Of a stretch of DNA of 64,000 nt, positions 9,084 to 39,221 are shown piece by piece (positions within the stretch are counted from its first letter, which is position 1; each line of letters begins with the position of its first letter). The DNA lies in NCBI GenBank assembly GCA_013388855.1, contig JACAEM010000005.1, positions 1 to 64,000 on the forward strand. The letters are read 5' to 3'. The stretch is from Chloroflexota bacterium (GTDB lineage Bacteria; Chloroflexota; Anaerolineae; Anaerolineales; Villigracilaceae). Made by a program: the position numbers and the translations under genes. The notes beneath the pieces are model-generated. The model was not told the origin of the DNA. It made no database searches and saw only the letters and a list, made by a program, of their open reading frames with translations.

Positions 9084-9146
9084 GGTTGACGGTTGATAGT
9101 TGACAGCGGAAAGCCGCCAACTGTCCACTTACAACTGTCAACCGTT
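9084..9146. repeat. GGTTGACAGTTG-type palindrome between trpE and trpS
   Basis: Imperfect inverted repeat with GGTTGACGGTTGATAGTTG facing CAACTGTCAACCG. It supplies the last two codons and TGA stop of trpE (9138-9146). Confidence 0.75.
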
Positions 9147-10601
9147 CGTTTCTGCCATTTCGATTGCTTTCAGCATGGCGCTGGCTTTATTGACGGTTTC
9201 CTGATACTCCGTGTTCGGATTCGAATCGGCGACGATGCCCGCGCCCGCCTGCACGCTGAAGGTATTTCCGCGCGCAACCATCGTGCGGAGGGCGAGGCAG
9301 GTATCCATGTTGCCGTCGAAGCCGAAGTAGCCGACCATGCCCGCATACGCGCCGCGCAGGTCGGGTTCGAGGTCGGCGATGATTTCGAGCGCCCGCACTT
9401 TCGGCGCGCCGCTGACGGTCCCTGCGGGGAAAGAGGCGCGGACCAAATCGAATGCAGTCAGGTCGGGTCGCAGTTTGCCTTCGACGTGCGAGACGATGTG
9501 CATGACGTGGGAATATTTCTCGATGGTGAAAAAGTCCGAAACGCGCACCGTGCCGTATTCGCAGACGCGCCCCAGGTCGTTGCGCCCTAAATCAACCAGC
9601 ATGACATGCTCGGCGCGTTCCTTGGGGTCAGCGAGGAGTTCCTGCACGAGTGCGTCGTCAGCGTTGGCATCTGCCCCTCGTGGGCGCGTCCCGGCAATCG
9701 GTCGGAGAGAGGCGGTGCGTCCTTCGAGGCGCACGAACATCTCAGGCGACGATCCGACCAAAAAGAGCGGCTCGCCATCCACCATCCCAAAATCGAAAAA
9801 GAACATGTACGGCGAGGGGTTGAGTCGGCGCACGGCGCGATAGACATCGAACGGCTCGACGTCCGTTTCGCGCGTGAAGCGCTGCGAAAGCACCACCTGA
9901 AAAATATCACCCGCCGCGATGAACTCCTTGGCGTCGCGCACCATGTCCTCGAAGCGTCCCTGCGTCATGTTCGAGCGCGTCTTCGAGGCTTTGACTTCAC
10001 GATGTTGTGACGGCGGAAGCGACGCATGGATGCGCGCCTCGATTTCATCCAGTCTGCGATTGGCGGCTTCGACATCCCCATCTAGGACATTGGCGATGAG
10101 CGACAGACTGCGGCGTGCGTGATCGAAGGCGACGACGGTATCGGCAAGGAGGAAGATGCCGTCGGGTATCGCCGCCCGCTTCATCCTGGACGCTTCGACA
10201 CGGCTCAGCGCAAGCCTTAGAACTGGTTCAAAAAACCGAACCGACTCAAAGCCGAGGAATCCCACCAGCCCGCCGATGAAACGCGGCACGCCAGGCTGGG
10301 TTTTGAAGTTGAAGCGGCTCATCTCCCGTTGAAGGAAAGAGGTGGGGTCATCGCTGTAAGCGGTCGTTGGGGGTTGGTAATTCTGTTTAATTTCAATTTC
10401 GTTCCCGCGAAGGATGTATTGCGCTTTGGGTTGGACGCCGATGAACGAATAGCGCGCGATCCGCTCCCCGCCCTCGACGGATTCGAGCAGGAAGGATGGA
10501 GTCTCCCCGCGCAGTTTCATGTAGACGCTGATGGGGGTTTCGAGGTCGGCGGAAATTTCGCGGATGACGGTTTGGGTGATTGCAGGCGCTTCGAGTAACA
10601 T
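9138..10601 (-). CDS. trpE: anthranilate synthase component I
   Basis: 487 residues, normal length. With the TrpG domain it makes anthranilate from chorismate. N-terminal Trp-binding region includes the [16 protein letters not shown] motif; the chorismate-binding half has [24 protein letters not shown] and [26 protein letters not shown] precedes the ATG. First gene of the operon, expressed from the promoter at 11042-11070 through the T-box leader. Feedback inhibition by Trp is expected from the family. Confidence 0.97.
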
Positions 10602-10674: not shown

Positions 10675-10716
10675 AAAACAGACTCCCCTCCAGTCCATTG
10701 GGACGAGAGGGGAATC
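10675..10716 (-). terminator. T-box controlled terminator of the trp leader
   Basis: Minus-strand GATTCCCCTC pairs with GAGGGGAGTC (one mismatch), with inner GTCC-CAAT-GGAC and a following TGTTTT. Its 5' arm overlaps the 3' part of the T-box antiterminator, so the two folds exclude each other. Confidence 0.85.
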
Positions 10717-11035
10717 TCGCGGTGCCACCCAAATTACGCGTGCTTGTAAAGAAAAATCCCTGTCGGTGATGCAACAGGGAGGAAAAAGCCAGCGTCACTC
10801 TTTTCAGGTACGCCGCACTACTGCGGTTATACCCTTGCTCTATAACGGGAGCTCCCGAATTGGGTTACTTGCGCTTGTGTGCGTTCGCCCGTTCAACTCG
10901 GAGGTCCATTCGGTTTCTGCGCTTTTGCCTTGCTCGCACCACGCTGGTTTCGATTTTGCTCTCGACCAACGGCTCGGCTCTCTGAAAACCGCTTTGAAAC
11001 GTACTCGTCCTCGTCAGCGTTTTTGGATTATGTTG
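10681..11035 (-). promoter_or_regulatory. T-box riboswitch, tRNA-Trp
   Basis: The minus strand carries the T-box core GGGTGGCACCGCG at 10718-10730, the hallmark of the antiterminator that captures the uncharged tRNA acceptor end. Upstream is a long stem-I region; its presumed specifier loop reads GAATGGACC with UGG (Trp) at 10906-10908. This fits the downstream trpE. The leader is about 430 bases and fills the gap to pheA. Uncharged tRNA-Trp should favour antitermination and trp expression. Confidence 0.93.
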
Positions 11036-11971: not shown

Positions 11972-13162
11972 CTATTGCTTTTCCGCCCACTCGACGATCT
12001 TACGGAAGCCCGCTTCTACATCTTCATCCGAGGCTGCTACCGTCATACGGACAAATCCTTCACCCTGACTCCCAAATGCCGAGCCGGGAACCAGCCCCAC
12101 ATTAGCTTCCTCGAGGAGGCGCTCACAAATTTCAAGCGAAGACATTTTCAACGGACGAAAATCGAGGAAGAAGTAGAACGCTCCCTGCGGCGGGGTGACC
12201 AGGACTTTTTCACACTCCAACTCACGAGCAAGTCGCAGCACAAGTTCACGCCGACGGGCATACGCAGCGCGCATGTTTGCAGTGAACTGCTGTATCTCAG
12301 GATCAGTCAACGCAAATGCGGCGGCTTTCTGAATGAACGGTGCGACACAGGTGATGGAGTTTTGTCCCGCCTTCAAAGCATTGTCGATGACCGCTTTCGG
12401 CGCGGCAAGGAAACCTACCCGCCAGCCGGTCATCGCATAGGATTTCGACAGACTGTTGACAAGAATTGTTCTCTCTTTGGCACCCTCAAACGCCGCGGCG
12501 CTGGTTGGTCTTTCGCCATAATACAGACTTCCATATACTTCATCGCTGACGATCCATAGGTCATGAATTTTAGCAAAGTCTTGCAGTTTTTGCAGATATT
12601 CACGAGTGGGATATGCGCCGGTCGGGTTGGAGGGATAATTCAATACGATGACGCGCGTCCTGGGGGTCAACGCCTTTTCCCATTCTTCGAACGGAGGGAT
12701 GAAACCATTCTCAGCGGGCGCAGGGATGCGGATGACATTTCCGCGCAACATAATCGCCATATTGGAATGAGTCGCCCAGGAGGGATCGGGAATAAGCACA
12801 TCGTCGCCCGGGTTCAGAATGGATTGCATCGCCGTGTAATAGGCATGGATGCCTCCATGCGTAACCAGAATCTCGGAAGCGGGGTCGTAGGGTACGCCTT
12901 CGTCGCGCAGCAACTTGGAAGCGGTGGCAGCCAGAAGGTCCGGGTAGCCGCGGGAGGGCCCGTAGTGGGTCAATCCGCTTCGAAGGGCTTTCATCGCCAC
13001 ATCCATGATCGCGGGGTGAGTCCCAAAATCCGGGTCGCCCACTTGCAGACCGACGATCTTTTGTCCGCTGGCTTTGAGCGCAAGAATACGATCCGCCATC
13101 GCTACGGTGGCAGACTGGCGGATCAATTCAAATTGATGGTTGAGATTCAAAGGAACATCCAC
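11972..13162 (-). CDS. PLP-dependent class I/II aminotransferase
   Basis: 396 residues, fold type I. Motifs: NYPSNPTGAYP, VSDEVYGSLYYG and the PLP lysine in NSLSKSYAMTGWR near residue 237, with the arginine of GSQGEGFVRMTV near the end. It starts with GTG overlapping the ilvE stop as TAGTG, so it is translationally coupled. Between ilvE and pheA it may transaminate aromatic or aspartate-family keto acids; the exact substrate cannot be read from sequence. Confidence 0.93.
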   Translation of the reverse strand: MDVPLNLNHQFELIRQSATVAMADRILALKASGQKIVGLQVGDPDFGTHPAIMDVAMKALRSGLTHYGPSRGYPDLLAATASKLLRDEGVPYDPASEILVTHGGIHAYYTAMQSILNPGDDVLIPDPSWATHSNMAIMLRGNVIRIPAPAENGFIPPFEEWEKALTPRTRVIVLNYPSNPTGAYPTREYLQKLQDFAKIHDLWIVSDEVYGSLYYGERPTSAAAFEGAKERTILVNSLSKSYAMTGWRVGFLAAPKAVIDNALKAGQNSITCVAPFIQKAAAFALTDPEIQQFTANMRAAYARRRELVLRLARELECEKVLVTPPQGAFYFFLDFRPLKMSSLEICERLLEEANVGLVPGSAFGSQGEGFVRMTVAASDEDVEAGFRKIVEWAEKQ

Positions 13163-14082
13163 TATTCAACGTATTCGCACCATGCTTCATACTTGTGGTT
13201 CCTGCCTCGGATGGCGTCATGATAGACGTTCTGCAATTTGCGAGTGACCGCACCGGTCCTGCCATCACCGACCTTGCGAAAGTCGATCTCGCTCAAGCCG
13301 ATCACTTCAGCCGCGGTACCACACACGAAGACTTCGTCGGCAATGTAGAGTTGGTCGCGCGAGATGGGCTGTTCCAAAATGCGGTAGCCGAGATCTTTCG
13401 CAATTGTGTGAATTGAATGCCGCGTCACGCCTTCGAGCACCGGGGCGGTAGCCGGGGTGACGATTTTGCCGTGACGCACCATGAACAGATTCTCACCGGT
13501 ACATTCCGCCACATATCCCTGCGGATCGAGCATGATGGCTTCTTCAAATCCAAGCCGCACCGATTCAGTCTTGGCGAGGAAACTATTGGCATAATTGCCC
13601 GACACCTTTGCCTTAGTCATCAACACATTCGGGTGATGACGAGTGTACGATGAGATGTTGGCGCGAATCCCTTTCGCCAGCGCTTCCTCGCCGAGATAGT
13701 TGTTCCATTCCCATGCCGCGATTGCCAGCGAGGGTTGTCCGTTATCCACATTCAGGTTCCAGCCGCCGTTATCCAGATACAATAACGGGCGGATATAGCA
13801 ATCCTTAAACCCATTGGCTTTTACAACCTGCTTGGTCGCTTCGACGATCTCCTCCACACTCCACGGAAATTCCCGGAAACCGAAGACGCGCGCCGAGTCG
13901 AACAGGCGCTCGATATGATCGGTCAGGCGAAAAACCGCCGGTCCCTTCGGCGTATCGTAGGCGCGAATCCCCTCAAACACCGCCGCGCCGTAATGCAACG
14001 CGGGCGTCAGAAAATGCAACGTGGCCTTCTCGAACGGCACCATTGTACCGTTCATCCAGATAAATTTGGATTCCATTCCCAT
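13162..14082 (-). CDS. ilvE: branched-chain amino acid aminotransferase
   Basis: 306 residues from MGMESKFIWMNG; AAAGGAG lies about 9 bases upstream. Fold type IV PLP enzyme: PLP lysine in AKVSGNYANS, EGIRAYDT at the N-terminus and the LEGVTRHSI loop. It interconverts the 2-keto acids and Ile/Val/Leu, the final step for the upstream ilv and leu genes. Stop overlaps the next gene as TAGTG. Confidence 0.96.
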   Translation of the reverse strand: MGMESKFIWMNGTMVPFEKATLHFLTPALHYGAAVFEGIRAYDTPKGPAVFRLTDHIERLFDSARVFGFREFPWSVEEIVEATKQVVKANGFKDCYIRPLLYLDNGGWNLNVDNGQPSLAIAAWEWNNYLGEEALAKGIRANISSYTRHHPNVLMTKAKVSGNYANSFLAKTESVRLGFEEAIMLDPQGYVAECTGENLFMVRHGKIVTPATAPVLEGVTRHSIHTIAKDLGYRILEQPISRDQLYIADEVFVCGTAAEVIGLSEIDFRKVGDGRTGAVTRKLQNVYHDAIRGRNHKYEAWCEYVE

Positions 14083-14107
14083 GATAATTTCTCTCCTTTT
14101 GATTCTG

Positions 14108-14165
14108 CAGGGGCGCAACGCGTCGATCCATCGACAAATTCCTGATTCGTTTCGCTGTGCCCCTG
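14108..14165. repeat. CAGGGGCGCA palindrome between leuB and ilvE
   Basis: 58-base element with ends CAGGGGCGCA and GTGCCCCTG and an inner GTCGATCCATCGAC palindrome. Confidence 0.7.
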
Positions 14166-14171
14166 TGAAGA

Positions 14172-15230
<1,059 letters not shown>

Positions 15231-15298: not shown

Positions 15299-16861
15299 TT
15301 AGTGCGCCACCATCAATCCATATTCCATCGAATCCGCCAGTGCACGCCAACTGGCTTCGATAATATTCGTTCCCGCGCCGACCGTACTCCAGCGGGAGGT
15401 GCTGTTGCGGGTGTCTATCAAGACACGGGTGACGGCTTTAGTGCCGTGATCCGAATCGAGGATACGAACTTTGTAATCTGACAAATGAAAATTCTTGATT
15501 TGCGGATAATAACTCGTCAGCGCCTTGCGCAACGCCAGATCGAGCGCATTGACGGGACCGTTCCCTTCCGCGGCAGTGTGAAGCACTTCACCCTGCACCC
15601 GCACCTTGACCATCGCTTCAGCAAAGATGCCGCGCCCCTGGCGGTGTTCGACATTGACAAAGAAGTCGATTAATTCGAATGGCGGCTTGTAGCCGTATTC
15701 CTGTCGCTTGAGCATGATCGCCACGGACGCCTCCGCCGCTTCGAACGAAAAGCCCTTCGCCTCAAGTTCCTTGATTTCGTTCAGCACCGGCACAACTTCC
15801 GTGCCTTCCACCTCGACACCATGCTCTTCTGCCTTGCTGAGCAAATTGCCGCGACCCGACAAATCCGAGACGATCACGCGCATCTTGTTCCCGACCTTTT
15901 CCGGCTCCACGTGCTGATACGATTGCGGTGAACGCCGGGTCGCCGCCACGTGCACTCCGCCTTTGTGGGCGAACGCAGATTTCCCTACGAAGGGCAGATG
16001 CTCGTCCGGCGTGAGGTTCGCCACCTCCGCCACAAAATGGGACAAGTCATACAAATGTCGGATATGTCCCTTGGGGAGGCATTGGTAGCCCATCTTCAAT
16101 TCAAGATCAGCCATGATGGAACACAGGTTGGCGTTACCACAACGCTCCCCCACACCATTGATTGTGCCCTGCACTTGAATGGCGCCCTGACGGACAGCCG
16201 TCAATGAATTGACGACGGCGCATTCAGAATCGTTGTGGGTATGAATGCCGAAAGGATGGTTCAGCACGGGTTTCAATTCGCCGATGATACTTTCCACCTC
16301 CCACGGCATGGTCCCGCCATTGGTATCGCACAGCACAACCGTCTCAGCCCCGCCGCGGATCGCCGCGTGCAAGGTCTCAAGAGCATAGACCTTGTCCGCT
16401 TTGTAGCCATCGAAGAAATGCTCGGCATCGTAGATGACCCGCTTGCCGTTAGCCTTGAGATACGCCACGGATTGTTCGATGATTCTCAAATTATCTTCAT
16501 GGGTGGTTTGCAGAACCTCGGTGACATGCAAAGTCCATGTTTTGCCGAAGATGGTACAGATGGGCGTTCGCGAATCGATAAGCGCCTTGATGTTGGCGTC
16601 GTCTTCGGGTCCACCTTTGACGCGGCAGGTGGAGCCGAACGCCGCAATGAGGGCATTCTTCCATGGCATATCCTTTGCGCGCTCGAAAAATTCAACATCC
16701 TTCGGATTCGAACCCGGCCAGCCACCTTCAATGAACGCCACGCCCAGTTCATCCAGTTTTTGAGCGATGCGAACCTTGTCGTTGGCGGACAGGTTGAAGC
16801 CCTCGGATTGCGTTCCGTCGCGCAGGGTGGTGTCGTAAATCTGTATGAGGGGCAAATCCAT
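15299..16861 (-). CDS. cimA: (R)-citramalate synthase
   Basis: 520 residues. N-terminal HMGL-like TIM barrel with YDTTLRDGTQSEGFNLS, FIEGGWPGSNPKD, CDTNGGTMPWE and the metal-binding GIHTHNDSECAV; C-terminal LeuA-type allosteric domain. The pattern (GGWPGSNPKD rather than the Leu[10 protein letters not shown] seen in the leuA product at 19142) matches citramalate synthase, which condenses pyruvate with acetyl-CoA and gives 2-ketobutyrate without threonine. No threonine deaminase gene is in the window. GAGGTAAAAA precedes the ATG. The stop lies next to a palindromic repeat. Confidence 0.93.
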   Translation of the reverse strand: MDLPLIQIYDTTLRDGTQSEGFNLSANDKVRIAQKLDELGVAFIEGGWPGSNPKDVEFFERAKDMPWKNALIAAFGSTCRVKGGPEDDANIKALIDSRTPICTIFGKTWTLHVTEVLQTTHEDNLRIIEQSVAYLKANGKRVIYDAEHFFDGYKADKVYALETLHAAIRGGAETVVLCDTNGGTMPWEVESIIGELKPVLNHPFGIHTHNDSECAVVNSLTAVRQGAIQVQGTINGVGERCGNANLCSIMADLELKMGYQCLPKGHIRHLYDLSHFVAEVANLTPDEHLPFVGKSAFAHKGGVHVAATRRSPQSYQHVEPEKVGNKMRVIVSDLSGRGNLLSKAEEHGVEVEGTEVVPVLNEIKELEAKGFSFEAAEASVAIMLKRQEYGYKPPFELIDFFVNVEHRQGRGIFAEAMVKVRVQGEVLHTAAEGNGPVNALDLALRKALTSYYPQIKNFHLSDYKVRILDSDHGTKAVTRVLIDTRNSTSRWSTVGAGTNIIEASWRALADSMEYGLMVAH

Positions 16862-16872
16862 TTTTTACCTCT

Positions 16873-16908
16873 GTAATTGGCAGATGGCAATTACCATGTA
16901 CCAATGGC
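16873..16908. repeat. 36-bp GGTAATTACC-type palindrome between leuD and cimA
   Basis: Imperfect palindrome GTAATTGGCAGATGGCAA / TTACCATGTACCAATGGC. It encodes the last codons and the TAA stop of leuD. Confidence 0.85.
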
Positions 16909-17487
16909 GAATCTTTGTTCGTAAGCTGTTATTTCTTTTTCAAAACCCATGATGTAACCAAGTTCATCCACGCCATTCAAGAGACAGGTCTTGTTGAATG
17001 CATCAATGGGAAAGGTGAAGGAGCCTCCGGGGAAGGACACAGTCTGGGTTTCCAGATCAACCGTAAGTTCGGCGTGAGGCGCCTCCTCCGCCAGGTCGAA
17101 GAGCATCTTGTGCATCTCATCGTCCACGATGATGGGGATGAGTCCGTTCTTCAGCGCGTTGTTTCGGAAGATATCCGCAAAGGATGTGGAGATGACCGTG
17201 CGGAATCCGTAGGACGTGAGCGCCCACGGAGCATGTTCCCGGCTCGAACCGCACCCGAAGTTGTCTCCGGCTAATAGAATCTGCGCCCCCTTCGACTCGG
17301 GCTTGTTCAAGACAAAATCCGCTTTTGGGGATTTGTCGTCGTTATAACGCCAGTGGAAGAACAGCGCATCGGCAAGGCCGTTCTTGTCGGTGACTTTCAA
17401 AAATTGCGCGGGGATGATCTGGTCCGTATCGACATCGTTGACAGGGAGGGGGATCATGCGGGAAGTGAGTGAAGTAAACTGCGCCAT
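16891..17487 (-). CDS. leuD: 3-isopropylmalate dehydratase small subunit
   Basis: 198 residues. Swivel domain of the aconitase-like dehydratase that isomerises 2- to 3-isopropylmalate. Motifs: DVDTDQIIPAQFL near residue 18 and GCGSSREHAPWAL near 77. It starts 5 bases after the leuC stop with AGGAT upstream. The last residues (AIGTW) are encoded by a palindromic repeat, so the C-terminus differs from the usual LeuD. Confidence 0.96.
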   Translation of the reverse strand: MAQFTSLTSRMIPLPVNDVDTDQIIPAQFLKVTDKNGLADALFFHWRYNDDKSPKADFVLNKPESKGAQILLAGDNFGCGSSREHAPWALTSYGFRTVISTSFADIFRNNALKNGLIPIIVDDEMHKMLFDLAEEAPHAELTVDLETQTVSFPGGSFTFPIDAFNKTCLLNGVDELGYIMGFEKEITAYEQRFAIGTW

Positions 17488-17492
17488 GATAT

Positions 17493-18911
17493 TTATCCTG
17501 CCAGTGTGCGTGGGTCGGTCACCTTGCCGTGGATGGCAGAAGCAGCCGCCGTGAGTGGGGAAGCCAAGAATGTCCGTCCGCCTTTGCCCTGCCGACCTTC
17601 AAAGTTGCGGTTGCTGGTGGAGACGGCATACTGACCGGGATGGAGCTGATCGCCGTTCATTGCAATACACATACTGCATCCCGCCTCACGCCACTCGGCG
17701 CCGGCTTCCTTGAAGACTTTATCGAGACCTTCCTGTTCCGCCTGCTTCTTCACATCTTGCGAACCGGGGACGACCATCACCCGTGTGCCGTCGGCAACCT
17801 TGCGTCCCTGCAACAACGACGCTGCCAGGCGCAGGTCGGAAATACGCGAGTTGGTGCAGGAGCCGATGAAGACCACGTCCACCTTTTGACCAAGCAGGGA
17901 TTGACCGGGCTGCAAGCCCATATAAGTCATGGCTTTTTCAAAGGCGGCTCTTTGCGAGGGATCGGTGAACGATTCGGTGCCGGGAATGCGATCTGTGATT
18001 TTCATGCCCATGCCGGGGTTTGTGCCGTACGTGATCATCGGCTCCAACTCAGAGGCATCCAGCGTAATATATTTGTCGTAAGCGGCGCCTTCATCGGAGG
18101 GCAACGAGCGCCATTTGGAAACGGCTTTGTCCCATTCTGCGCCTTTGGGGGCGAATTCACGTCCGTGCAGGTATTCGAAGGTGGTATCGTCAGGGGCGAT
18201 CATGCCTGCGCGTGCGCCGCCTTCAATGGACATGTTGCAGATGGTCATACGTTGTTCCATGGACAGTGCGCGGATGGCAGAACCGGTGTACTCAAAAACG
18301 TGACCCGTCCCACCGCCAACGCCAATACGGGCGATGAGCGCAAGGATGATGTCCTTGGCAGAAACACCGGGGGCGAGTGCGCCATCTACTCGCACTTCGT
18401 AGGTCTTGGGCTTTTTCTGCAGGAGGCATTGAGTGGCAAGGACATGCTCCACTTCGCTGGTGCCGATGCCAAACGCCAGCGCGCCGAACGCGCCGTGTGT
18501 GGCAGTGTGACTGTCGCCGCAGACGATGGTCATACCAGGCTGTGTGCGCCCCAGTTCGGGACCGATGACATGCACGATCCCGCGGTGCGGGCTGTTCATG
18601 CCATGCAGGGTGATGCCAAACTCGGCAGCGTTCGTTTCCATTTGCTTGATCTGCGCTGCGGCCAGGGCATCGGTGATCGGCGCATCGAGCGGTGTGGTTG
18701 GGATGGAGTGATCCATCGTGGCGAGGGTCTTATCCGGGCGGCGGACTCCGAGTCCGCGCTGGCGGAGACCGGTGAACGCCTGGGGTGAGGTCACTTCGTG
18801 GACAAGGTGGAGGTCAATATAGAGGATGGCGGGAGCATCGGGTTGCTCGGCGACAATGTGGGAGTCCCAGATTTTTTGAAATAAAGTTTTCGGCATAGGA
18901 GTAAATGACAC
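17493..18911 (-). CDS. leuC: 3-isopropylmalate dehydratase large subunit
   Basis: 472 residues if it starts at GTG 18911, 467 from the ATG at 18896 ([11 protein letters not shown], the usual LeuC N-terminus). The GTG overlaps the stop of the small ORF upstream as TAGTG, the same arrangement as ilvE/aminotransferase, so GTG is favoured. 4Fe-4S cluster cysteines: FIGSCTNSR and the CSMC pair of [25 protein letters not shown] is the conserved substrate loop. Pairs with leuD. Confidence 0.96.
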
Positions 18912-19141: not shown

Positions 19142-20788
19142 TTATCCAAGCATAACGCCATGCAGATGATTGGCAGGCGTGGGATTGAGTCCTTCGGTCT
19201 GGGCGATGATTAGTTTGTTCAAGGCATTAAGGTATGCCTTGGCGCTGGCAACGATGATGTCAGTATCTGCGCCATGACCGCCGAAGACGCGTTGATAAGG
19301 AATCTCGCTTTGTGCATCCATCGTGTGCAGTCCATCCTGCCCCTGGATGCGGACCGTGACCTCGCCCAGAGCGTCGATGCCTTCAGTGATGGCGTGGACA
19401 TTGAACTCAAGCAGGGTGTTTGGCATTTTGACAATGTGATCGATTGCCTTGTATGCCGCATCGACCGGGCCGGACCCCATCGCGGCAAAGACATGCAGTT
19501 TACCGTCCGGTCCCTTTAAGCGGACGGTGGCGGTGGGCATGCCCATCGTCCCACAGGTGACCTGCATCCCATCCAGAATATATACATCGCGCGGGCGGTA
19601 AAATTCGTCGGCAATCAAGGCTTCCAGATCGACATCCGTGATGACCTTCTTGCGGTCTGCCAGTTCCTTGAAACGGGCAAAGGCTTTATCAAGTTCGACA
19701 TCGTCGAGTGAATGACCCATCTCGGCAAGACGATTGCGCAAAGCGTGACGACCCGAGTGCTTACCCAACACCAGTTTCGTTTGATTGACGCCAACATCTT
19801 CCGGGCGCATGATCTCGTAGGTAGTCTGATGCTTCAACATCCCATCCTGATGGATGCCCGCTTCATGGGCAAAAGCGTTCGCCCCGACAATTGCCTTGTT
19901 CGGCTGGACGACGATACCGGTGTAATTGCTGACCAGCTTGCTGACGCGCGCGATCTGCCGGGTATCGATGCCTGTCTCCAGATTGAAGATGGGCTTGCGC
20001 GTCCGCAATGCCATGACCACTTCCTCCATGGACGTATTCCCGGCCCGTTCGCCGATGCCGTTGACCGTCACTTCCGCCTGGCGTGCGCCCGCGCGGATGC
20101 CCGCCAGCGTATTCGCGGTCGCCATCCCCAGATCATCGTGGCAATGTACCGAGATTGTGATGCCATCATGCATTCCCGGCGTATTCTTGATGATGCCGTC
20201 GATCAGTGCAAAATACTCATCGGGTGTGGTGTACCCAACCGTATCAGGGATGTTCAACGTCGTCGCGCCGGATTTGATCGCTTCACCCAACACGACATAC
20301 AGGAACTCAGGGTCGGAACGTCCCGCGTCTTCGGGGCTGAACTCCACATCCTCACATTTCGATTTTGCATACGCCACCATCTCAGACACACGTTGCACCA
20401 CTTCCTCAGGGTCCATCTTCAATTTGTGCTTCATGTGGATGGCGGATGTGGCAAGGAACGTATGGATGCGCGGCTTTGCAGCGCCCTGGATGGCCTCCCA
20501 TGCCTTATCAATATCGGATTTGTTGGCGCGCGCCAGCCCCGCAATGACCGGGACTTTCGCCTCCGACTCACCCGGAGCTGGTCTCCCCACTTCGAGCGCG
20601 ATCCGTCTGACAGCTTCCAGGTCATCCGGCGAGGCGGCAGGGAACCCGGCTTCGATGATATCCACGCCCATGCGCGCCAGTGACCGCGCCACTTCGAGTT
20701 TCTCGGCGGAGGTCATCGTCGCGCCGGGAGATTGCTCGCCGTCGCGGAGGGTGGTATCAAAGATTTTGACATAGTTGTTTTTGGTCAT
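19142..20788 (-). CDS. leuA: 2-isopropylmalate synthase
   Basis: 548 residues. Condenses 2-ketoisovalerate with acetyl-CoA, committing to leucine. TIM barrel: [48 protein letters not shown] and [16 protein letters not shown]; Leu-sensing C-terminal domain with [23 protein letters not shown] precedes the ATG. The presence of separate leuA and cimA supports distinct roles for the two synthases. Confidence 0.96.
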
Positions 20789-20812: not shown

Positions 20813-20838
20813 GTGGTAATTTGGCAAGTGGCAATTCC
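20813..20838. repeat. half copy of the GGTAATT repeat between ilvC and leuA
   Basis: GTGGTAATTTGGCAAGTGGC followed by AATTCC, matching one side of the 36-base palindromes, just downstream of the ilvC stop. Confidence 0.6.
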
Positions 20839-21890
20839 TACTTCTTCCAGTTTTCGGGGCGTAAAGACCTGACCGCCGCACCGGCACGCCACATTTCCGA
20901 ATCGCGGAAGGCGGCAAGTTCCTTCTCAAGTTGCTCGCGGTAATCGGGGCGGGAATTGGCTTCGAGGGTGATACGGGCTTCGTTGCCACTCTTCACCGAC
21001 TCGTATAACTCTTCAAACACCGGCGCAACAGCATCACGAAAACGCGGATGCCAGTCCAACGCGCCGCGCTGAGCGGTGGTGGAACAATTGGCATACATGA
21101 AATCCATGCCGTTCTCGCCTACAAGGCGGATCAATGACTGGGTCAATTCTTCGACCGTTTCATTGAAGGCTTCCGAGGGGGAATGTCCGTTCTTGCGGAG
21201 AACGTTGTACTGGGCCTCCATCACACCAGAAAGAGCGCCGATCAAAATGCCGCGCTCTCCGGTCAGGTCGCTGTACACTTCGTTCTTAAATGTGGTCGGA
21301 AATAAATACCCTGCACCGATGGCAATACCGAGAGCGATCGCGCGCTCCGTGGCTTTACCCGTGTAATCCTGGTGGACGGCATAACTGGCATTGATGCCGC
21401 TGCCCGCCAGGAAATTGCGCCGCACACTGGTGCCCGATCCCTTTGGCGCGACAAGCGCCACATCCACATGTGGAGGCGGGATCACGCCGGTATCATCCTT
21501 GAACGTGACCGAGAACCCGTGCGAGAAATACAGCATATCGCCTTCGTTCAAACACTCCACGATCCTGGGCCACTGCGAACGTTGGCCGGCATCTGACAAC
21601 AAATACTGAATAACCGTACCGCGTTCGGCGGCTTCCTCCACCGAAAACAGCGTCTCACCGGGAACCCAGCCATCCGCCACCGCGCGGTCCCAGTTCTTCG
21701 TCCCCCGGCGCTGACCCACGATGACCTTGATGCCGTTATCGCGCATGTTCATCGCTTGCGCAGGTCCCTGCACACCGTAGCCAAGCACAGCAACAACTTC
21801 GTTCTTTAGCACCTCACGCGCCTTCTCAAGCGGAAATTCCTCGCGCGTAACAACGTCCTCTTCCACACCGCCAAAATTGATCTTTGCCAT
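20838..21890 (-). CDS. ilvC: ketol-acid reductoisomerase
   Basis: 350 residues. NADPH Rossmann motif GYGVQGPAQAMN and specificity loop VGQRRGT at the N-terminus; the knotted C-terminal domain carries the Mg-binding region DLTGERGILIGALSGVMEAQYN and the later EANSRPDYREQ. It isomerises and reduces acetolactate and acetohydroxybutyrate. Downstream of ilvN by a 150-base spacer holding repeats. Confidence 0.96.
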   Translation of the reverse strand: MAKINFGGVEEDVVTREEFPLEKAREVLKNEVVAVLGYGVQGPAQAMNMRDNGIKVIVGQRRGTKNWDRAVADGWVPGETLFSVEEAAERGTVIQYLLSDAGQRSQWPRIVECLNEGDMLYFSHGFSVTFKDDTGVIPPPHVDVALVAPKGSGTSVRRNFLAGSGINASYAVHQDYTGKATERAIALGIAIGAGYLFPTTFKNEVYSDLTGERGILIGALSGVMEAQYNVLRKNGHSPSEAFNETVEELTQSLIRLVGENGMDFMYANCSTTAQRGALDWHPRFRDAVAPVFEELYESVKSGNEARITLEANSRPDYREQLEKELAAFRDSEMWRAGAAVRSLRPENWKK

Positions 21891-22041: not shown

Positions 22042-22599
22042 TTACGGCACCATTGCGGCAACAGATATGTCATCGTAATGGCGGTCACTCATACCAGGCA
22101 TGCGGCGCACACCCTCATTGACTCCGCGCGTCATCGAAACCTGACCAGTGCGGACCATCTCCACGATGCCGATCGGGCGCAAAAGTTCGATCATGCCCTC
22201 GATCTTGTCTTCGGTACCGGTGACCTCGACGATGACTGAGTCCGCTGCCACATCCACAATGCGGGCGCGGAAGATCTCGGCAAGGCCGTTCACTTCAGCG
22301 CGGCGTTCAGGTCCAACCTTGACCTTGATCAGAGCCAGGTCGCGGGTCACCGAAGGCTGATGCGTAACGTCCTGCACATCGATCACGTTGACCAGTTTGT
22401 ACAGGTTGGCTTCGATGCGATGGGCGTCCACATCCCCATTTGGGCAGTCCACTACGATGGTCATGCGCGAGACATCGGGGTTTTCCGTCCGCCCGACAGC
22501 GAGCGACTCGATATTGAAGTTGCGGCGTCGAAACAAGGATGCCACGCGGTTCAACACGCCGGGTTTGTTTTCTACTAATGCGATGAAGGTGTAGTTCAT
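22042..22599 (-). CDS. ilvN: acetolactate synthase regulatory subunit
   Basis: 185 residues. N-terminal ACT domain (FIALVENKPGVLNRVASLFRRRNFNIESLAVGRTE) followed by the conserved C-terminal domain (ARIVDVAADSVIVEVTGTEDKIE). It binds IlvB and confers valine feedback. AGAGGACATC precedes the ATG. Separated from ilvB by 97 bases with a strong hairpin. Confidence 0.95.
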   Translation of the reverse strand: MNYTFIALVENKPGVLNRVASLFRRRNFNIESLAVGRTENPDVSRMTIVVDCPNGDVDAHRIEANLYKLVNVIDVQDVTHQPSVTRDLALIKVKVGPERRAEVNGLAEIFRARIVDVAADSVIVEVTGTEDKIEGMIELLRPIGIVEMVRTGQVSMTRGVNEGVRRMPGMSDRHYDDISVAAMVP

Positions 22600-22696: not shown

Positions 22697-24388
22697 TCAT
22701 TTGGCTAGCTTGACCGGTCTCCGAATCATCTCGTGCAACGCCGCCCCCGCGGGGACCATTGGATACACGGCATCTTCCTGCTCCACGCGGAATTCCAACA
22801 CCACGGGACCTTGCGTCTTGCGCGCCCATTCGATGGCTTCTTCCACTTCTTCGCGTTTGGTCACGCGCCGTGCTGGGACGCCATGCGCGTCGGCGAGTTT
22901 GACAAAATCAGGCGTGAGCATATTCACGGCGGAATAGCGCTTCTCGAAGAAAAATTCCTGCCACTGACGCACCATCCCCAGGAAATTGTTATTCATGATG
23001 GCAACTTTTACGTTCGCGCCCTCCTGCACGGCAGTGGTCAGTTCGGCGGCGGTCATTTGGAATCCGCCATCACCCGCGATTGCCCAGATCTCCTGATCCT
23101 TCGCCGCGAACCACGCGCCAATCGCCGAGGGGAGACCAAAGCCCATTGTCCCGGCGCCGCCCGAGGTCAGCCAGCGATTCGGCTTTTCCATCTGGTAATA
23201 CTGCGCAGTCCACATCTGGTGCTGACCGACATCCGTGGTCACAATGGCATTGCCGCCGGTCGCCTTCCAAATATCCGCGATCAGATGCGCCACGTATAAC
23301 TTGCCATCCTCCTCCCAGTTCATGATGTCACGTGAATCGGTCTCGTTCTTCCAGCCTTGAATTTCTTGCAACCAATCATCATGGTCATATTCATCCACCA
23401 ACGGGATCAGATCGCTCACAACAGTATTCACGTCTCCAACGAGAGGGACATCCACAAAAACATTTTTATGAATTTCAGAAGGATCGATCTCGATATGGAT
23501 TTTCTTGGCTTTGGGAGCATAGGTCTTGAGCGTTCCAGTCACGCGGTCATCGAAGCGCATACCGAAGGCAAGAATCAGATCGGAATTTTGGATCGCCAGA
23601 TTGGCATACGCTTCGCCATGCATCCCCATCATGCCGAGGCTCAACGGATGGGAAGCGGGAAACGCTCCGAGACCCAACAGCGTACTTGCCACCGGCGTTT
23701 GCGTCTTGACCGCAAACTGCATCAATGCCTCCTCGGCATGCGACATCAACACGCCGTGCCCGCACAGGATGACGGGCTTGTGCGCCTGCTCGATCAATGC
23801 TACTGCATCATCCAACAACGCCTTTGGCGAACGCGTCACAGGTTGATAACCCGGCAGTTTCGGTTCATCGGGATACACAAACTCACACGATTCCACCTGC
23901 GCGTTCTTGCAGATATCGACCAGCACGGGACCTGGTCGTCCACTGCGCGCGATGTAGAATGCTTCGCGCAGAGTCTCGGCGATTTCATCCGCGCGGGTCA
24001 CAAGATAATTATGCTTTGTGATCGGCAATGTAATCCCGGTTACATCGGTCTCTTGAAATGCATCCCCGCCGATCAAATGTGCGGCTACCTGCCCTGTGAT
24101 GAAGACGACCGGAACCGAATCCATCATCGCCGTGGCAATACCCGTAACCAGGTTCGTGGCACCCGGGCCCGACGTCGCCATCGCCACGCCAACTTTTCCC
24201 GAGGCGCGAGCGTACCCATCCGCCATATGCGCGCCACCCTGCTCGTGCCGCACCAATACATGATGAACGGGATAATTCAACATCGCGTCGTAGATCGGCA
24301 TGTTCGCGCCGCCGGGGTAGCCAAACACCACCTCCACCCCTTCACGCACCAGGCACTCCCAAACAATTTCTGCACCTTTTTTCTTCAT
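22697..24388 (-). CDS. ilvB: acetolactate synthase catalytic subunit
   Basis: 563 residues. ThDP-dependent: catalytic Glu in VLVRHEQGGAHMADGYAR near residue 48 and the ThDP motif from GDGGFQMTAAEL to NNNFLG near 440-475; central FAD-binding domain. AAAGGAGCAATC precedes the ATG. It makes acetolactate for Val/Leu and acetohydroxybutyrate for Ile; pairs with IlvN. The gap to ilvD is filled by a dispersed repeat. Confidence 0.97.
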   Translation of the reverse strand: MKKKGAEIVWECLVREGVEVVFGYPGGANMPIYDAMLNYPVHHVLVRHEQGGAHMADGYARASGKVGVAMATSGPGATNLVTGIATAMMDSVPVVFITGQVAAHLIGGDAFQETDVTGITLPITKHNYLVTRADEIAETLREAFYIARSGRPGPVLVDICKNAQVESCEFVYPDEPKLPGYQPVTRSPKALLDDAVALIEQAHKPVILCGHGVLMSHAEEALMQFAVKTQTPVASTLLGLGAFPASHPLSLGMMGMHGEAYANLAIQNSDLILAFGMRFDDRVTGTLKTYAPKAKKIHIEIDPSEIHKNVFVDVPLVGDVNTVVSDLIPLVDEYDHDDWLQEIQGWKNETDSRDIMNWEEDGKLYVAHLIADIWKATGGNAIVTTDVGQHQMWTAQYYQMEKPNRWLTSGGAGTMGFGLPSAIGAWFAAKDQEIWAIAGDGGFQMTAAELTTAVQEGANVKVAIMNNNFLGMVRQWQEFFFEKRYSAVNMLTPDFVKLADAHGVPARRVTKREEVEEAIEWARKTQGPVVLEFRVEQEDAVYPMVPAGAALHEMIRRPVKLAK

Positions 24389-24501: not shown

Positions 24502-26169
24502 TTAGCTCATCAACACCGCGCCTGTATCTGCACTGGTGACAAAATGCGAATACCGTTTCAACCATTTGGATGTGGTCCTGGATTGAAACGGAGGTAGCGC
24601 ATCCAATCGGCTCTGGATCTCTGCATCGCTTAACCTCACATTGAGGCTGCGTTCCGTTAAATCGATTTGGATCAAATCTCCAGGCTGCAACGCCGCGATT
24701 GGACCGCGCGCCGCCGCTTCCGGTGAAACGTGACCGATGCACGTACCACGCGTCCCGCCGCTGAAGCGACCATCCGTGATCAGTGCAACCTTGTCGCCAA
24801 GCCCCTGCCCCATGATCGCCGACGTGGGCGAGAGCATCTCCTGCATCCCCGGCCCACCCTTCGGGCCTTCGTAACGGACAACAACACAATCTCCCGCTTT
24901 AACCTTGCCCGCCAAAATCCCAGCCATGGCTTCGTCTTGCGATTCAAAGATCACCGCCGGACCCTCAAACTTCATCATCGCCGGGCCGACTCCGCCCACT
25001 TTGACCACCGCCCCATTCGGAGCAAGATTGCCAAACAGGATCGCCAGCCCGCCGCGTTTGGAATGTGCATTGTCATAACGTCGAATCACCTCATCATCTT
25101 TAATATCGTAACCCTGGATCGATTCTCCCAATGTCTTGCCTGTCACCGTCAAACGATCAAAATGCAGCATACCCGTTCCCCATTGGATTTCGTTCAAGAT
25201 TGCCGGGATTCCACCGGCGCGATGGACATCCTCCATGTGCCACTTGCCCGCTGGACTGACCTTACAGATGTGCGGAACCTTATCCGCAACGGCATTGATA
25301 CGTTCCAACGGATAATCTACACCTGCTTCATTTGCCAATGCCAGTGTATGCAAAACGGTATTCGATGATCCGCCCATCGCCATATCCAATGCAAAGGCAT
25401 CGTCGATGGCTTCGGCGGTGACAATGTCACGCGGCTTGATATCTCGTTCGATGAGCGTTACGATCTGCGCGGCGGCTTGACGCGCCAATGCTTCACGCTC
25501 CGGGGTTTTCGCCAAGGCTGAACCGTTGAATGGCAGCGCCAGCCCCAATGCTTCCATCAAACAGTTCATCGAGTTGGCGGTAAACATCCCTGAGCATGAA
25601 CCGCAGGAGGGACAGGCAAATTTTTCGAGAGTGGTGAGTCGTCGATCGTCGATCTTCCCCGCTGAATAAGCGCCGACTCCTTCAAAGACGGAAATCAAAT
25701 CAATCGTTTCGCCTTCAGGAGTCATCCCCGCCTTCATCGCCCCGCCGGAAACGAAGATGGTCGGTATGTTGACGCGCATCGCCGCAAGCAACATGCCCGG
25801 CACGATCTTGTCACAGTTTGGGATGCAAACCATGGCGTCAAACCTATGGGCTTCGATCATCGTCTCGACACAGTCCGCAATCAATTCCCGCGAAGGAAGC
25901 GAGTACTTCATCCCCAGGTGCCCCATTGCAATGCCATCATCCACGCCGATGGTGTTGAACTCGAACGGCACACATCCCGCGGCGCGAACGGCGTCTTTCA
26001 CCAGCTTGCCGAACTCCTGTAAATGCACATGCCCGGGCACCACATCCACATACGAATTGACGATGGCAACAAACGGCTTGTTGAAATCATCATCTTGCAA
26101 ACCGGTCGCGCGCAACAATGCACGATGCGGCGCTTTTTCATATCCCTTTTTGACAGTATCTGATCGCAT
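24502..26169 (-). CDS. ilvD: dihydroxyacid dehydratase
   Basis: 555 residues from [29 protein letters not shown] stands before the ATG. Fe-S dehydratase: CDKIVPGML and [17 protein letters not shown] cysteines, and catalytic [15 protein letters not shown] region near the end. It produces the 2-keto acids of Val and Ile. First structural gene behind the branched-chain attenuator. Confidence 0.97.
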
Positions 26170-26181
26170 ATTTCCTCTTTG

Positions 26182-26224
26182 CTCCCCTCTCCATGATGAA
26201 GTCATGGGGAAGGGTCGGGCGGGG
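26182..26224. repeat. degenerate CCCTCTCC-type palindrome in the ilvD leader
   Basis: CCCCTCTCCATGA faces TCATGGGGAAGGG; resembles the family at 6109, 27256, 31568 and 34497. It lies between the attenuator terminator and the ilvD start. Confidence 0.5.
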
Positions 26225-26230
26225 GATAAC

Positions 26231-26262
26231 AAAAAAGCCGCCCATGGTTAGGGCGGCTTTTT
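26231..26262 (-). terminator. attenuator terminator of the ilv-leu operon
   Basis: GCCGCCC/GGGCGGC stem (26237-26243 with 26251-26257), loop ATGGTTA, flanked by A and T runs so minus-strand RNA ends in UUUUUU. The loop plus 5' arm (minus-strand CCTAACCA, 26245-26252) also pairs perfectly with TGGTTAGG in the leader peptide gene (26301-26308), giving an alternative antiterminator. Confidence 0.9.
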
Positions 26263-26276
26263 GCATTTACGTAGAG

Positions 26277-26378
26277 TTATCTCGCTCTCTCCGGCACCAT
26301 CCTAACCACAAATAGATCCTTAATAATAAGGACCGCAATAAGGATGACAATAAGGGAGAGGTTGAAGATTGAATTCAT
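26277..26378 (-). CDS. ilvL: Ile/Val/Leu leader peptide (attenuator)
   Basis: 33 residues: begins MNSIFNLSLIVILIAVLIIK and ends DLFVVRMVPERAR. Sixteen residues are Ile (6), Val (5) or Leu (5), clustered at positions 9-19, like the ilvGMEDA leader of enterobacteria. Shortage of charged Ile, Val or Leu tRNA should stall ribosomes there, freeing TGGTTAGG (codons 24-26) to pair with the terminator loop and block termination. A competing stem pairs CATCCT (26341-26346) with AGGATG (26298-26303). The ATG is about 16 bases from the predicted transcript start. Function inferred from structure; all components are visible. Confidence 0.9.
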   Translation of the reverse strand: MNSIFNLSLIVILIAVLIIKDLFVVRMVPERAR

Positions 26379-26400
26379 TTGGGTTAATGTATTTCGCCCG

Positions 26401-26428
26401 ATTATAGGCAGAAACGGAAATCCGTCAA
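26401..26428 (-). promoter_or_regulatory. promoter of the ilv-leu superoperon
   Basis: TTGACG (26423-26428), 16-base spacer, TATAAT (26401-26406) on the minus strand; predicted start near 26394. It begins 21 bases after the lysK stop with no terminator between. Confidence 0.85.
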
Positions 26429-26448
26429 GGGATGATTTTCCGATTCGG

Positions 26449-27534
26449 TCAGGCGCTCAAATGCGACAACACAACTGACAAAACATTCACCGCTTTTTGA
26501 TAATCATTCAAATTGATATATTCGTTTGGTGTATGATCCAAATTGGAATCGCCGGGGCCATACACCACAGCAGGGCATTTCCACACAGGAGCGACAATGT
26601 TTAGATCGGCGGTTCCCGTTTTATAGACGAAACGCGGCTCTCCGCCGTTTGACCTGATCCCGCTTAAAAAAGCGCGTACCAATTTTGTGTTTTTTTCACA
26701 TCCCCACGCCGGGACAGCAAAACCGATTCGTTCCACATCCGCGTTCCCCGCAATCTCTCCCAATTTCTTGTACCAATCCTCAGGCGAAACATCCACAGGC
26801 AAACGAACTCCCACTTTCAGCCTCGTCCATTGTTCAAAATCATTCGAATCCGATTCCATGCCGCGTAAGGTCAATAACAATTGATCGAATATTTTTTGTT
26901 TATCAGCATTGAACGCATCGACGTACGCCTTGATCCTCAGCCATACTTCGACCGCTGCTTCCGCTGCCGTCTCCTCCCCGCTGGCGGTGTGCGTCTGTTC
27001 GCGTTTGATGGTCACACTTGCCCAGGCGCTGCCTTTGTACCCCAGCCCGACACGATCCCATTGGTTTGGTTCACCGATAATGGCGTAGTCTGGCCGATAT
27101 TTATCGACAATAAAACGCGCCCCTTCCGAGTCGCGTTCTTCTTCCACCGCACCGATGACAACGCACTGCCATCCAGCTTTCGCGCCAACCTTTGCCACCG
27201 CGTCCACAAAACACGCCAGCGGGCCCTTCGCATCCACCGAACCGCGCCCGTACAGACTCCCCTCTCCCTGCAGGAGAGGGCGACCCGAAGGGTCGGGTGA
27301 GGGAGGAATGAGGGCAACCTCTATCTCCCCCGGCACAGTATCAATATGACCCAACAGGACCACCTGTTGGGGTCCTTTTCCCATCACACCGACGGCATTC
27401 CCGGCACCATCGATATAGGCATCATCATAGCCCAGCAATTTCATCCGCGTTACGAGCCATTCCACCGCTCCCCGCTCCTGCCCGGAAGGGCTGTACTGCG
27501 ATACCAGCCCAACCAGTGTTTCAAACTCACTCAT
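26449..27534 (-). CDS. lysK: LysW-ornithine (or LysW-lysine) hydrolase with in-frame repeat insertion
   Basis: 361 residues, M20 zinc peptidase family. It releases ornithine (or lysine) from the LysW C-terminal Glu. Metal-binding motifs: VVLLGHIDTVPGE (His, Asp), GSVDAKGP and GAVEEERDSEG. Between VALI and GSLYGRGSVDAKG lie about 16 extra residues (PPSPDPSGRPLLQGEG) encoded by a palindromic CCCTCTCCC repeat. Last gene of the arg operon, 3 bases after argD. Context with argG/argH favours ornithine release for arginine. Confidence 0.9.
   Translation of the reverse strand: MSEFETLVGLVSQYSPSGQERGAVEWLVTRMKLLGYDDAYIDGAGNAVGVMGKGPQQVVLLGHIDTVPGEIEVALIPPSPDPSGRPLLQGEGSLYGRGSVDAKGPLACFVDAVAKVGAKAGWQCVVIGAVEEERDSEGARFIVDKYRPDYAIIGEPNQWDRVGLGYKGSAWASVTIKREQTHTASGEETAAEAAVEVWLRIKAYVDAFNADKQKIFDQLLLTLRGMESDSNDFEQWTRLKVGVRLPVDVSPEDWYKKLGEIAGNADVERIGFAVPAWGCEKNTKLVRAFLSGIRSNGGEPRFVYKTGTADLNIVAPVWKCPAVVYGPGDSNLDHTPNEYINLNDYQKAVNVLSVVLSHLSA
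27256..27303. repeat. CCCTCTCCC palindrome inserted in frame in lysK
   Basis: CCCCTCTCCCTGCAGGAGAG followed by GGCGACCCGAAGGGTCGGGTG. The insertion leaves the frame open and adds a Pro/Gly-rich loop. Confidence 0.85.
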
Positions 27535-37692: not shown

Positions 37693-37811
37693 CTCTTATC
37701 CAGAGAGGCTGAGGGACCGACCCTGTGAAGCCTCGGCAACCAAACGAAAGTTCCGGTGCCAATTTCGGCAAATAGGAATGGCAAATGTCATTCGTATCTG
37801 GAAGATGAGAG
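37693..37811 (+). promoter_or_regulatory. SAM-I riboswitch aptamer
   Basis: P1 pairs CTCTTATC (37693-37700) with GATGAGAG (37804-37811). Inside are the conserved AGAGAGGCTGAGGGAC, GAAGCCTCGGCAACC and AAGGTGCC-like GTTCCGGTGCCAATT segments of the S-box. Located between the promoter and metY; SAM binding should stabilise P1 and allow termination. Confidence 0.95.
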
Positions 37812-37925: not shown

Positions 37926-39221
37926 ATGGCTACTGCAATTCAAGGACGACAATTAGGTTTTGCCACCCGTCAGTTACATGCGGGCTATTCCCCTGACCCC
38001 GCCACAGGAAGCCGCGCGGTGCCGTTGTATCAGACCACCAGTTACCAATTCAAGAGCACGGAACATGCCGCAAATCTATTTGCGCTCAAAGAGTTGGGAA
38101 ATATTTATACGCGCTTGATGAATCCAACCACCGATGTATTGGAACAACGCATTGCAGCACTCGAAGGCGGTGTGGCTGCGCTGGCTTCGAGCTCCGGTCA
38201 TGCCGCGCAGGCGCAGGCAATCTTCACATTGTGCAATGCCGGTGACCATATCGTTTCGTCATCGCGTTTGTACGGCGGCACCTATAACCAATTCGCTTAT
38301 ACCCTGCCCAAATTGGGAATCGAAGTCACATTCGTGGATCCGCGTGACCCGAAGAACTTCGAAGCGGCAATCAAGCCGAACACCAAGATTTTGTACGGCG
38401 AGACATTGGGCAATCCCGACATTGCTGTGTTCCCTTTCGAAGAAGTGGCTGAGATCGCGAGGAAACACAAACTGGTGTTATTCATCGACAACACATTCGC
38501 CACACCGTACCTCTTCCGCCCGTTCGAATGGGGCGCCCATGTGGTCACTCACTCAACCACCAAGTTTATTGGCGGACATGGCACATCCATCGGCGGCATC
38601 ATTGTGGATGGCGGCAATTATGATTGGAGCAACGGCAAGTTCGAGAACTTCAATACGCCTGACCCTTCGTATCATGGGTTGGTGTATTCCACACTTTCGA
38701 GCGTTGGTTTGCCTCCGTTTGCGATCAAGGCGCGCGTACACGTGCTGCGCGACATTGGCGCGTGCCAATCGCCATTCAATTCATGGCAGACGCTTCAAGG
38801 CATCGAGACCTTGAGCATCCGCATGGAACGCCATGTACAGAATGCGCAAATCGTAGCCGAATATCTCGAAGATCATCCAAAGGTGAGTTGGGTGAAGTAT
38901 CCTGGTCTGAAGAGTCATCCCGATTATGAGCGAGCCCAACAGTATTTGCCGAAGGGTGCAGGCGCCATCCTTGGCTTTGGCGTGAAAGGCGGTTTGGAAG
39001 CGGGCAAGAGATTTATTGAAAACCTGCAACTTTTCAGCCACCTTGCCAATGTTGGCGATGCACGGAGTCTGGCGATCCATCCTGCCACAACGACGCACAG
39101 CCAGTTGACCGAAGAACAGCAGATATCCGCAGGCGTCAGTCCGGACTTTGTCCGCTTATCCATTGGGCTGGAGGATATCGACGATATCCTGTGGGACCTG
39201 GATCAGGCGCTGAATAGCTGA
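37926..39221 (+). CDS. metY: O-acetylhomoserine sulfhydrylase (first copy)
   Basis: 431 residues, Cys/Met metabolism PLP family. PLP lysine in [17 protein letters not shown] near residue 209; other motifs YTRLMNPTTDVLEQR and SSGHAAQAQAIF. It makes homocysteine from O-acetylhomoserine and sulfide. First gene after the SAM-I switch. Very similar to the gene at 40264, and the two flank metA. Confidence 0.95.
   Translation: MATAIQGRQLGFATRQLHAGYSPDPATGSRAVPLYQTTSYQFKSTEHAANLFALKELGNIYTRLMNPTTDVLEQRIAALEGGVAALASSSGHAAQAQAIFTLCNAGDHIVSSSRLYGGTYNQFAYTLPKLGIEVTFVDPRDPKNFEAAIKPNTKILYGETLGNPDIAVFPFEEVAEIARKHKLVLFIDNTFATPYLFRPFEWGAHVVTHSTTKFIGGHGTSIGGIIVDGGNYDWSNGKFENFNTPDPSYHGLVYSTLSSVGLPPFAIKARVHVLRDIGACQSPFNSWQTLQGIETLSIRMERHVQNAQIVAEYLEDHPKVSWVKYPGLKSHPDYERAQQYLPKGAGAILGFGVKGGLEAGKRFIENLQLFSHLANVGDARSLAIHPATTTHSQLTEEQQISAGVSPDFVRLSIGLEDIDDILWDLDQALNS

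Follow-up and report, generated by a model that had tools for sequence, protein, structure and literature searches.

Escherichia coli controls its ilvGMEDA and ilvBN operons by attenuators in which a leader ORF rich in Ile, Leu and Val codons is followed by competing 1:2, 2:3 and 3:4 folds and by a terminator before the first gene. According to a 2010 paper, Proteobacteria and Actinobacteria were the only groups with demonstrated leader-peptide systems, apart from the Firmicutes case that the paper itself reports (PMC2965389). Control of ilv genes by leader peptides is described for Corynebacterium (PMC10272879) and predicted for other Actinobacteria (PMC1262725), while that of ilvD was shown or proposed in Listeria and Staphylococcus (PMC5864092, PMC5794164); for Listeria rli60, mutations of the start codon, the RBS and the terminator support ribosome-mediated attenuation (PMC5864092). 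An earlier, sequence-only reading of the locus described here, which called the design best known from Proteobacteria, understated this precedent of ilv leader-peptide attenuators in Actinobacteria and Firmicutes (PMC10272879, PMC1262725, PMC5864092, PMC5794164). As for the phylum considered here, one study counts Chloroflexi among those groups for which its statistics on leader genes lacked a sufficient number of genomes (PMC4833913), and another names Chloroflexota in passing only (PMC9413887).

We analysed a stretch of 64,000 nucleotides from a Chloroflexota bacterium (the window), and its ilv-leu gene row is very probably governed by a classical ribosome-mediated transcription attenuator. 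Our literature search found no amino-acid leader-peptide attenuator described for Chloroflexota; the 2010 survey of Lopatovskaya, Seliverstov and Lyubetsky, which reportedly may list Chloroflexi, was outside its scope.

Anatomy of the leader and the gene row behind it

The leader is located between lysK, which lies directly upstream on the same strand with its end at 26449, and a row of biosynthesis genes for branched-chain amino acids (BCAA). Its parts are:

26401..26428, minus strand: sigma-70-type promoter TTGACG-16-TATAAT, matching the consensus at 11 of 12 bases
26277..26378, minus strand: leader ORF MNSIFNLSLIVILIAVLIIKDLFVVRMVPERAR, 33 codons, 16 of them Ile, Leu or Val (6 I, 5 L, 5 V)
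26322..26354, minus strand: control-codon block LIVILIAVLII, codons 9-19, Ile, Leu or Val at 10 of 11
26325..26347, minus strand: region 1, control codons predicted to be the partner of region 2 when the terminator forms (single-sequence fold and alignment consensus)
26315..26334, minus strand: hairpin GGTCCTTA-TTAT-TAAGGATC from the last control codons, competing with the antiterminator, with covariation; a possible pause hairpin by its inferred role
26296..26308, minus strand: region 2, TGGTTAGGATGGT, 5' strand of the antiterminator, within the leader ORF
26245..26257, minus strand: region 3, GCCGCCCTAACCA, 5' arm and loop of the terminator and 3' strand of the antiterminator
26231..26262, minus strand: intrinsic terminator (3:4) with U-run, -21.0 kcal/mol, with covariation

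The genes behind it are:

24502..26169, minus strand: ilvD, dihydroxy-acid dehydratase, first in the row, start at the conserved MRSDTVKKG
22697..24388, minus strand: ilvB, acetolactate synthase large subunit
22042..22599, minus strand: ilvN, acetolactate synthase small subunit
20838..21890, minus strand: ilvC, ketol-acid reductoisomerase
19142..20788, minus strand: leuA, 2-isopropylmalate synthase
17493..18911, minus strand: leuC
16891..17487, minus strand: leuD
15299..16861, minus strand: cimA-type citramalate synthase (pyruvate route to isoleucine)
14172..15230, minus strand: leuB
13162..14118, minus strand: ilvE, branched-chain aminotransferase

The promoter, the 33-codon ORF with its 16 Ile/Val/Leu codons, the competing stem and the U-run terminator had all been proposed by the sequence-only reading, and each of them was found in its place on the minus strand. 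The BCAA biosynthesis genes after the leader follow one another in the order ilvD-ilvB-ilvN-ilvC-leuA-leuC-leuD-cimA-leuB-ilvE, all on the minus strand, and the whole row from ilvD to ilvE presumably forms one transcript. A mechanically called ORF at 24502-26232 was rejected as ilvD because its start is too early: relatives share the IlvD start ATG at 26169, and the leader and its terminator therefore lie outside ilvD.

In the antiterminator, TGGTTAGG (26308-26301) and CCTAACCA (26252-26245) are perfectly complementary, and beyond one mismatch the helix resumes with UGGU/GCCG. As region 3 is common to antiterminator and terminator, the two folds are mutually exclusive. Region 2 is separated by 13 nt from the last control codon of the block of codons 9-19 and itself coincides with two Val codons, at which a stall would favour termination. 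The RNA 26400-26231 folds with z = -4.09 (0 of 200 shuffles equally stable) and the antiterminator segment alone with z = -3.01 (2 of 200), and none of 200 synonymous recodings of the window's peptide (row L001) reaches as stable an antiterminator duplex. The terminator at 26262-26231 was missing from a simple terminator scan of the window, presumably because its stem runs into the U-run.

In a classical attenuator of this layout, RNA polymerase would start at the promoter at 26428-26401 and make a short leader RNA, on which a ribosome would begin translation at the leader ATG, unaided by a Shine-Dalgarno sequence, and encounter ten Ile, Leu or Val in eleven codons. If charged tRNA were short for any of the three amino acids, the ribosome would stall and mask region 1 and the 26334-26315 hairpin; region 2 (TGGTTAGGATGGT) could then pair with region 3 (GCCGCCCTAACCA), which would remove the 5' arm of the terminator and allow the polymerase to continue into the ilvD row. 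With ample charged tRNA, the ribosome would cover region 2 during synthesis of regions 3 and 4, the terminator would fold and transcription would end; without translation, region 1 would pair with region 2 and the terminator would form too. The support for an attenuator consists of its parts, their conservation and covariation, and the selection at RNA level discussed below, from which we infer translation, stalling and read-through. No Shine-Dalgarno-like motif precedes the leader ATG of the window, and a title cited in PMC10272879 has the C. glutamicum ilvBNC leader peptide formed without a ribosome binding site.

Downstream of the -10 box, the stretch 26406-26392 (minus strand; TATAATCGGGCGAAA) is strongly conserved in the family though outside the leader ORF, and no pairing partner for it was found. 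A pairing of GGGCG after the -10 box with the CGCCC of the terminator was dropped, as it shows no covariation (L002, L018), and a dispersed palindrome between terminator and ilvD was discarded after blastn gave one copy in the genome.

Conservation, covariation and the level of selection

The leader stretch is present in a single copy in its own genome. Blastn found matches in 22 of 61 genomes including its own, 19 of which (again with its own) have the leader and three (G043, G057, G060) the terminator end only. A pattern scan of named genomes yielded 52 stretches, in which the pattern itself is invariant by construction; their names read Chloroflexi or Anaerolineae-type, or belong to groups that we take to be Chloroflexota. 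These partly overlapping sources together gave an alignment (A1) of 55 distinct leaders, the window's included. All 55 carry TTGACn-16-TATAAT, with a spacer of 16 throughout, and a simple motif test found a Shine-Dalgarno-like motif before the leader ATG in 0/55. The gene behind the leader is ilvD in 67 of 71 loci (duplicates included), the four others holding few bases past the leader core (L028 45, L045 181, L057 36, L068 155). At several loci (L004/L058, L014, L017/L070, L036/L086 with the same leader, L066, L096, L099) this ilvD is divergent, being 39-44% identical to the window's; the leader therefore stayed while the gene was exchanged.

Such a context could also arise by chance, if a plain lysK terminator, an unrelated promoter and a random ORF happened to adjoin, and lysK does end at 26449, just upstream on the same strand. 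We give this explanation next to no credit: the promoter precedes ORF and terminator in 55/55 distinct leaders, the arrangement is conserved at many loci where at least about 1.5 kb of upstream sequence is available and holds no lysK match, and the helices covary.

In A1, 92.7% of the antiterminator cells are paired and 6 cells are changed on both sides (0.6 in shuffles), compared with 97.7% and 6 cells for the terminator and 90.0% and 7 cells for the control-codon hairpin; the covariation score of each helix is reached in 0/500 shuffles, which take no account of relatedness among leaders. Sliding the antiterminator partner along lowers pairing to 12-48%. The count of further pair types is unremarkable, being reached by 248/500 shuffles for the antiterminator and by 492/500 for the terminator. 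Two pairs of the control-codon hairpin are missing in 15/55 rows, which we read as a shifted register of the AAAGGA class. Since MAFFT misplaces some indel-bearing terminators, antiterminator partners were also classed directly: GTTAGG in the ORF is paired with CTAACC, CTAGCC, CTGACC or CTAATC in 47/47 leaders, and GTTGGG/GTTGGA with CCAACC, CCAACTA or CCGACC in 8/8. The region 1:2 pairs (GTCCTnATT with GGTnAGGAT, from the single-sequence fold and RNAalifold) are nearly invariant, with no two-sided changes among them. An outer helix (CTCTC/GAGAG) catches the eye in L019, L035 and L023 but is unproven, its score being reached by 48/500 shuffles.

The perfect 8-base antiterminator of the sequence-only reading thus needs a correction: it is an exact complement in the window, but its eighth and outermost pair (26308/26245) is unpaired in 31 of 54 leaders, and the conserved core consists of 7 bp plus 3 bp past the mismatch. 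The covariance of the three hairpins in relatives, to which that reading had looked for a check, is supported in the 55 leaders for antiterminator, terminator and control-codon hairpin, and its interpretation as an Ile/Val/Leu leader-peptide attenuator stands, with conserved control codons and a covarying 26301-26308/26245-26252 pairing in Anaerolineae. Its inference of the taxon, too, passes the comparative tests, the leaders being conserved in Anaerolineae.

Codons and peptide of the leader are conserved to different degrees. Across 16 loci with orthologous ilvD, a set that came from nucleotide similarity and so favours conserved leaders, at positions with an unchanged amino acid the codon is unchanged too in 86.9% of comparisons in the leader core vs 51.6% in ilvD, a gap that is large all the same, and the best of 35 equal-length ilvD windows has 63%; amino-acid identity is 72.9% in the leader core vs 89.5% in IlvD. 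With codons more conserved and peptide less conserved than in IlvD, the comparison argues for selection on RNA structure and codon identity in the leader, and selection at the peptide level was rejected on the same grounds. One might nevertheless suppose that the ORF is conserved for its product, a small hydrophobic (membrane) peptide with a function of its own: the 33 residues include a hydrophobic stretch as well as a basic tail, and they are kept in many genomes. We consider this very improbable, since the amino acids are more variable than those of IlvD and the codons far less variable, the change from AAGGAT to AAAGGA preserves the RNA stem yet turns Asp to Gly, and region 2 covaries with a non-coding partner.

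The leader RNA might also control ilvD by something other than stalling at Ile/Leu/Val codons, namely a small molecule, a protein or translation as such. Such non-classical control is reported for ilvB and leuA of S. coelicolor (PMC1262725), and ppGpp riboswitches govern ilvB in some bacteria (PMC10272879). In the look-alike leader of S. coelicolor ilvB codon mutations left regulation unchanged (PMC1262725), and anatomy alone has therefore misled before. However, at the leader described here no Rfam family reaches its cut-off (minus strand, Leu_leader 18.7/50, Phe_leader 24.7/55 and Thr_leader 18.7/55 bits), compensating changes keep the antiterminator, and Ile/Leu/Val-rich leader ORFs recur in very different leaders across class and phylum, so that we regard non-classical control as unlikely and retain the classical attenuator.

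Distribution of the leaders and their occurrence in series

A covariance model (R1) built from A1, the alignment of leaders from this family, has matches in 103 of the family's 152 genomes, 65 of its 88 good-quality genomes and 19 of its 26 genera (model matches as scored). In the genus that includes the genome of the window, 11 of 18 genomes have an R1 match and 7 have none, and in the class the matched genomes number 95 of 396. We examined 98 of the 100 class matches listed, and a same-strand BCAA biosynthesis gene is found within 1.5-1.7 kb behind 86 of them, 28 of 30 in one batch and 58 of 68 in the other (ilvB 32, ilvD 15, ilvE-like 9, leuC 2). At L150 and L173 the sequence reaches the end of the contig, and L141, L149, L151, L154, L163 and L168 are apparent false matches. 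Two matches (L104 and L106, 1501-1666, minus strand) precede a periplasmic binding protein, probably of Liv type (Peripla_BP_6 in L104, by resemblance in L106); their architecture is the same, their leaders abound in Ile and aromatic codons (L104: VIIIIMWVLYYFYY), and the antiterminator reads GGTTGGG/CCCAACC. In L125 and L135 an Ile/Leu/Val-rich leader attenuator is located before a protein of ~140 aa; Pfam gives no match for the copy in L135.

The sequences of distant leaders diverge while the plan is kept: region 2 has its equivalent in GGTTGGGAGG, pairing with CCTCCCAACC, in GTTTAGGA with TCCTAAAC, in GTTTGAGGCGGC with GCCGCCTCAAAC, and in others. Over 94 loci, the mean energy of the antiterminator duplex is -20.3 vs -15.2 for synonymous recodings and -15.8 for swapped partners. 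Individually, 46 of the 94 beat 95% of their synonymous recodings (in 11 the best duplex lies past the stop codon, where recoding is uninformative); against partner swaps the 95% level is reached by 31 only, probably because one terminator sequence is common to most loci. A lack of antiterminator in nine ilvE-headed leaders was considered and rejected: their region 2 comes after the stop codon, and with more sequence included, duplexes of -17.3 to -24.7 kcal/mol were obtained.

A second model (R2), run on 400 genomes sampled from the phylum, has matches in 97, of which 57 belong to other classes. Sixty of the 62 R2 matches outside the class were fetched, and 41 precede ilvB (32), ilvD (8) or an ilvE-like gene (1) within ~1.9 kb; among the other 19, 11 are without a convincing leader by reading. 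In one family outside the class, short leaders of a GVIVIVLLE type occur (L196, L201, L219, L226 and L242, from G587, G705, G768, G510 and G663), with two or three per genome in G510, G663 and G705. The genes behind them are not or weakly recognised by the window's proteins, and some resemble thiamine-diphosphate enzymes by eye.

In Chloroflexi bacterium GWB2_49_20 (L063, the named copy of L018), a second leader with its own antiterminator and terminator stands between the first leader and ilvD, the pair being located at 1492-1643 and 1662-1823 of L018. Serial leaders 18-25 nt apart are present in 7 of the 152 family genomes (G020, which is L018, and G802, G811, G826, G838, G840 and G841), and in the six cases besides G020 (L248-L253) a promoter-like stretch precedes the first leader and ilvD follows the second. 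An AGGA stretch is found before the second start in L248, L249, L250 and L251 and is absent in L252 and L253; the second antiterminator of G802 is weak (-11.8 kcal/mol). In L097 we noted an apparent decayed second leader copy. Tandem attenuators with two short ORFs are described for Salmonella mgtCBR (PMC3641672), and our literature search found none for any amino-acid biosynthesis operon. The serial leaders offer a natural test of how two consecutive attenuators shape a response.

T-boxes in the same genome and comparison with known systems

The genome of the window has seven T-box (RF00230) matches, two of which exceed the Rfam cut-off. The genes concerned are pheS (above its family cut-off), trpE, then ileS, valS and leuS (identified by the best family match for residues 1-420, hence below full-length cut-offs), and thrS and serS (named from reading the translation alone). 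The T-box before trpE (9138-10601), at 10696-11026 on the minus strand, scores 81.7 bits against a Rfam cut-off of 93, and trpS is found behind it. A SAM riboswitch at 37693-37811 on the plus strand precedes an O-acetylhomoserine sulfhydrylase gene (37926-39221), and three kinds of RNA control are thus seen within one 64-kb window. T-boxes of Chloroflexi were known earlier from Dehalococcoides, for ileS and trp genes (PMC2494555).

The contrast drawn by the sequence-only reading, according to which many other phyla use T-boxes for these genes, is not an either/or. At the leader itself no T-box was found, either in the whole window at gathering or in 26150-26500 at E up to 10, and the same genome has T-boxes before ileS, valS and leuS: charging of the Ile, Val and Leu tRNAs would be sensed by T-boxes where the synthetases are concerned and through translation of the leader where biosynthesis is. 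A wider reading is, in our judgement, about evenly balanced: leader-peptide attenuation may be a phylum-wide and perhaps the prevailing control of BCAA genes in Chloroflexota, beside T-boxes for the same tRNAs (ileS, valS, leuS), and in one family it may be doubled, two non-identical attenuators behind one promoter giving a steeper response because read-through would need both, with related Ile/aromatic leaders controlling a Liv-type binding protein. The leader described here would bring a large phylum, uncultured for the most part, into the range of tRNA-charging control by ribosome stalling, and it provides a covariance-supported family for annotation in Chloroflexota; with both devices in one genome the question of why lineages pick T-box or leader translation becomes directly comparable.

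T-box leaders (RF00230) likewise read tRNA charging, whereas at the ilv-leu leader the ribosome would be the sensor. The attenuators of E. coli ilvGMEDA and ilvBN are alike in plan; the leader of the window differs from them in having ilvD first, region 2 inside the ORF and no Shine-Dalgarno-like motif. The ilvB-II motif of Corynebacterium likewise places a BCAA-rich uORF, an antiterminator and a terminator ahead of an ilv operon, but as described in PMC10272879 it usually has 15-17 codons, is located upstream of ilvB and belongs to Actinobacteria. Listeria monocytogenes rli60 (PMC5864092) and the ilvD attenuator of Staphylococcus aureus (PMC5794164) have ilvD first in an ilv-leu operon, as in the window. 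They differ in being from Firmicutes, in their combination with CodY and in a different RNA (PMC5864092, PMC5794164), and rli60 moreover in its 13-residue peptide with an RBS (PMC5864092). Taken together, the design of this leader is known from other phyla and seems to be common in Chloroflexota too.
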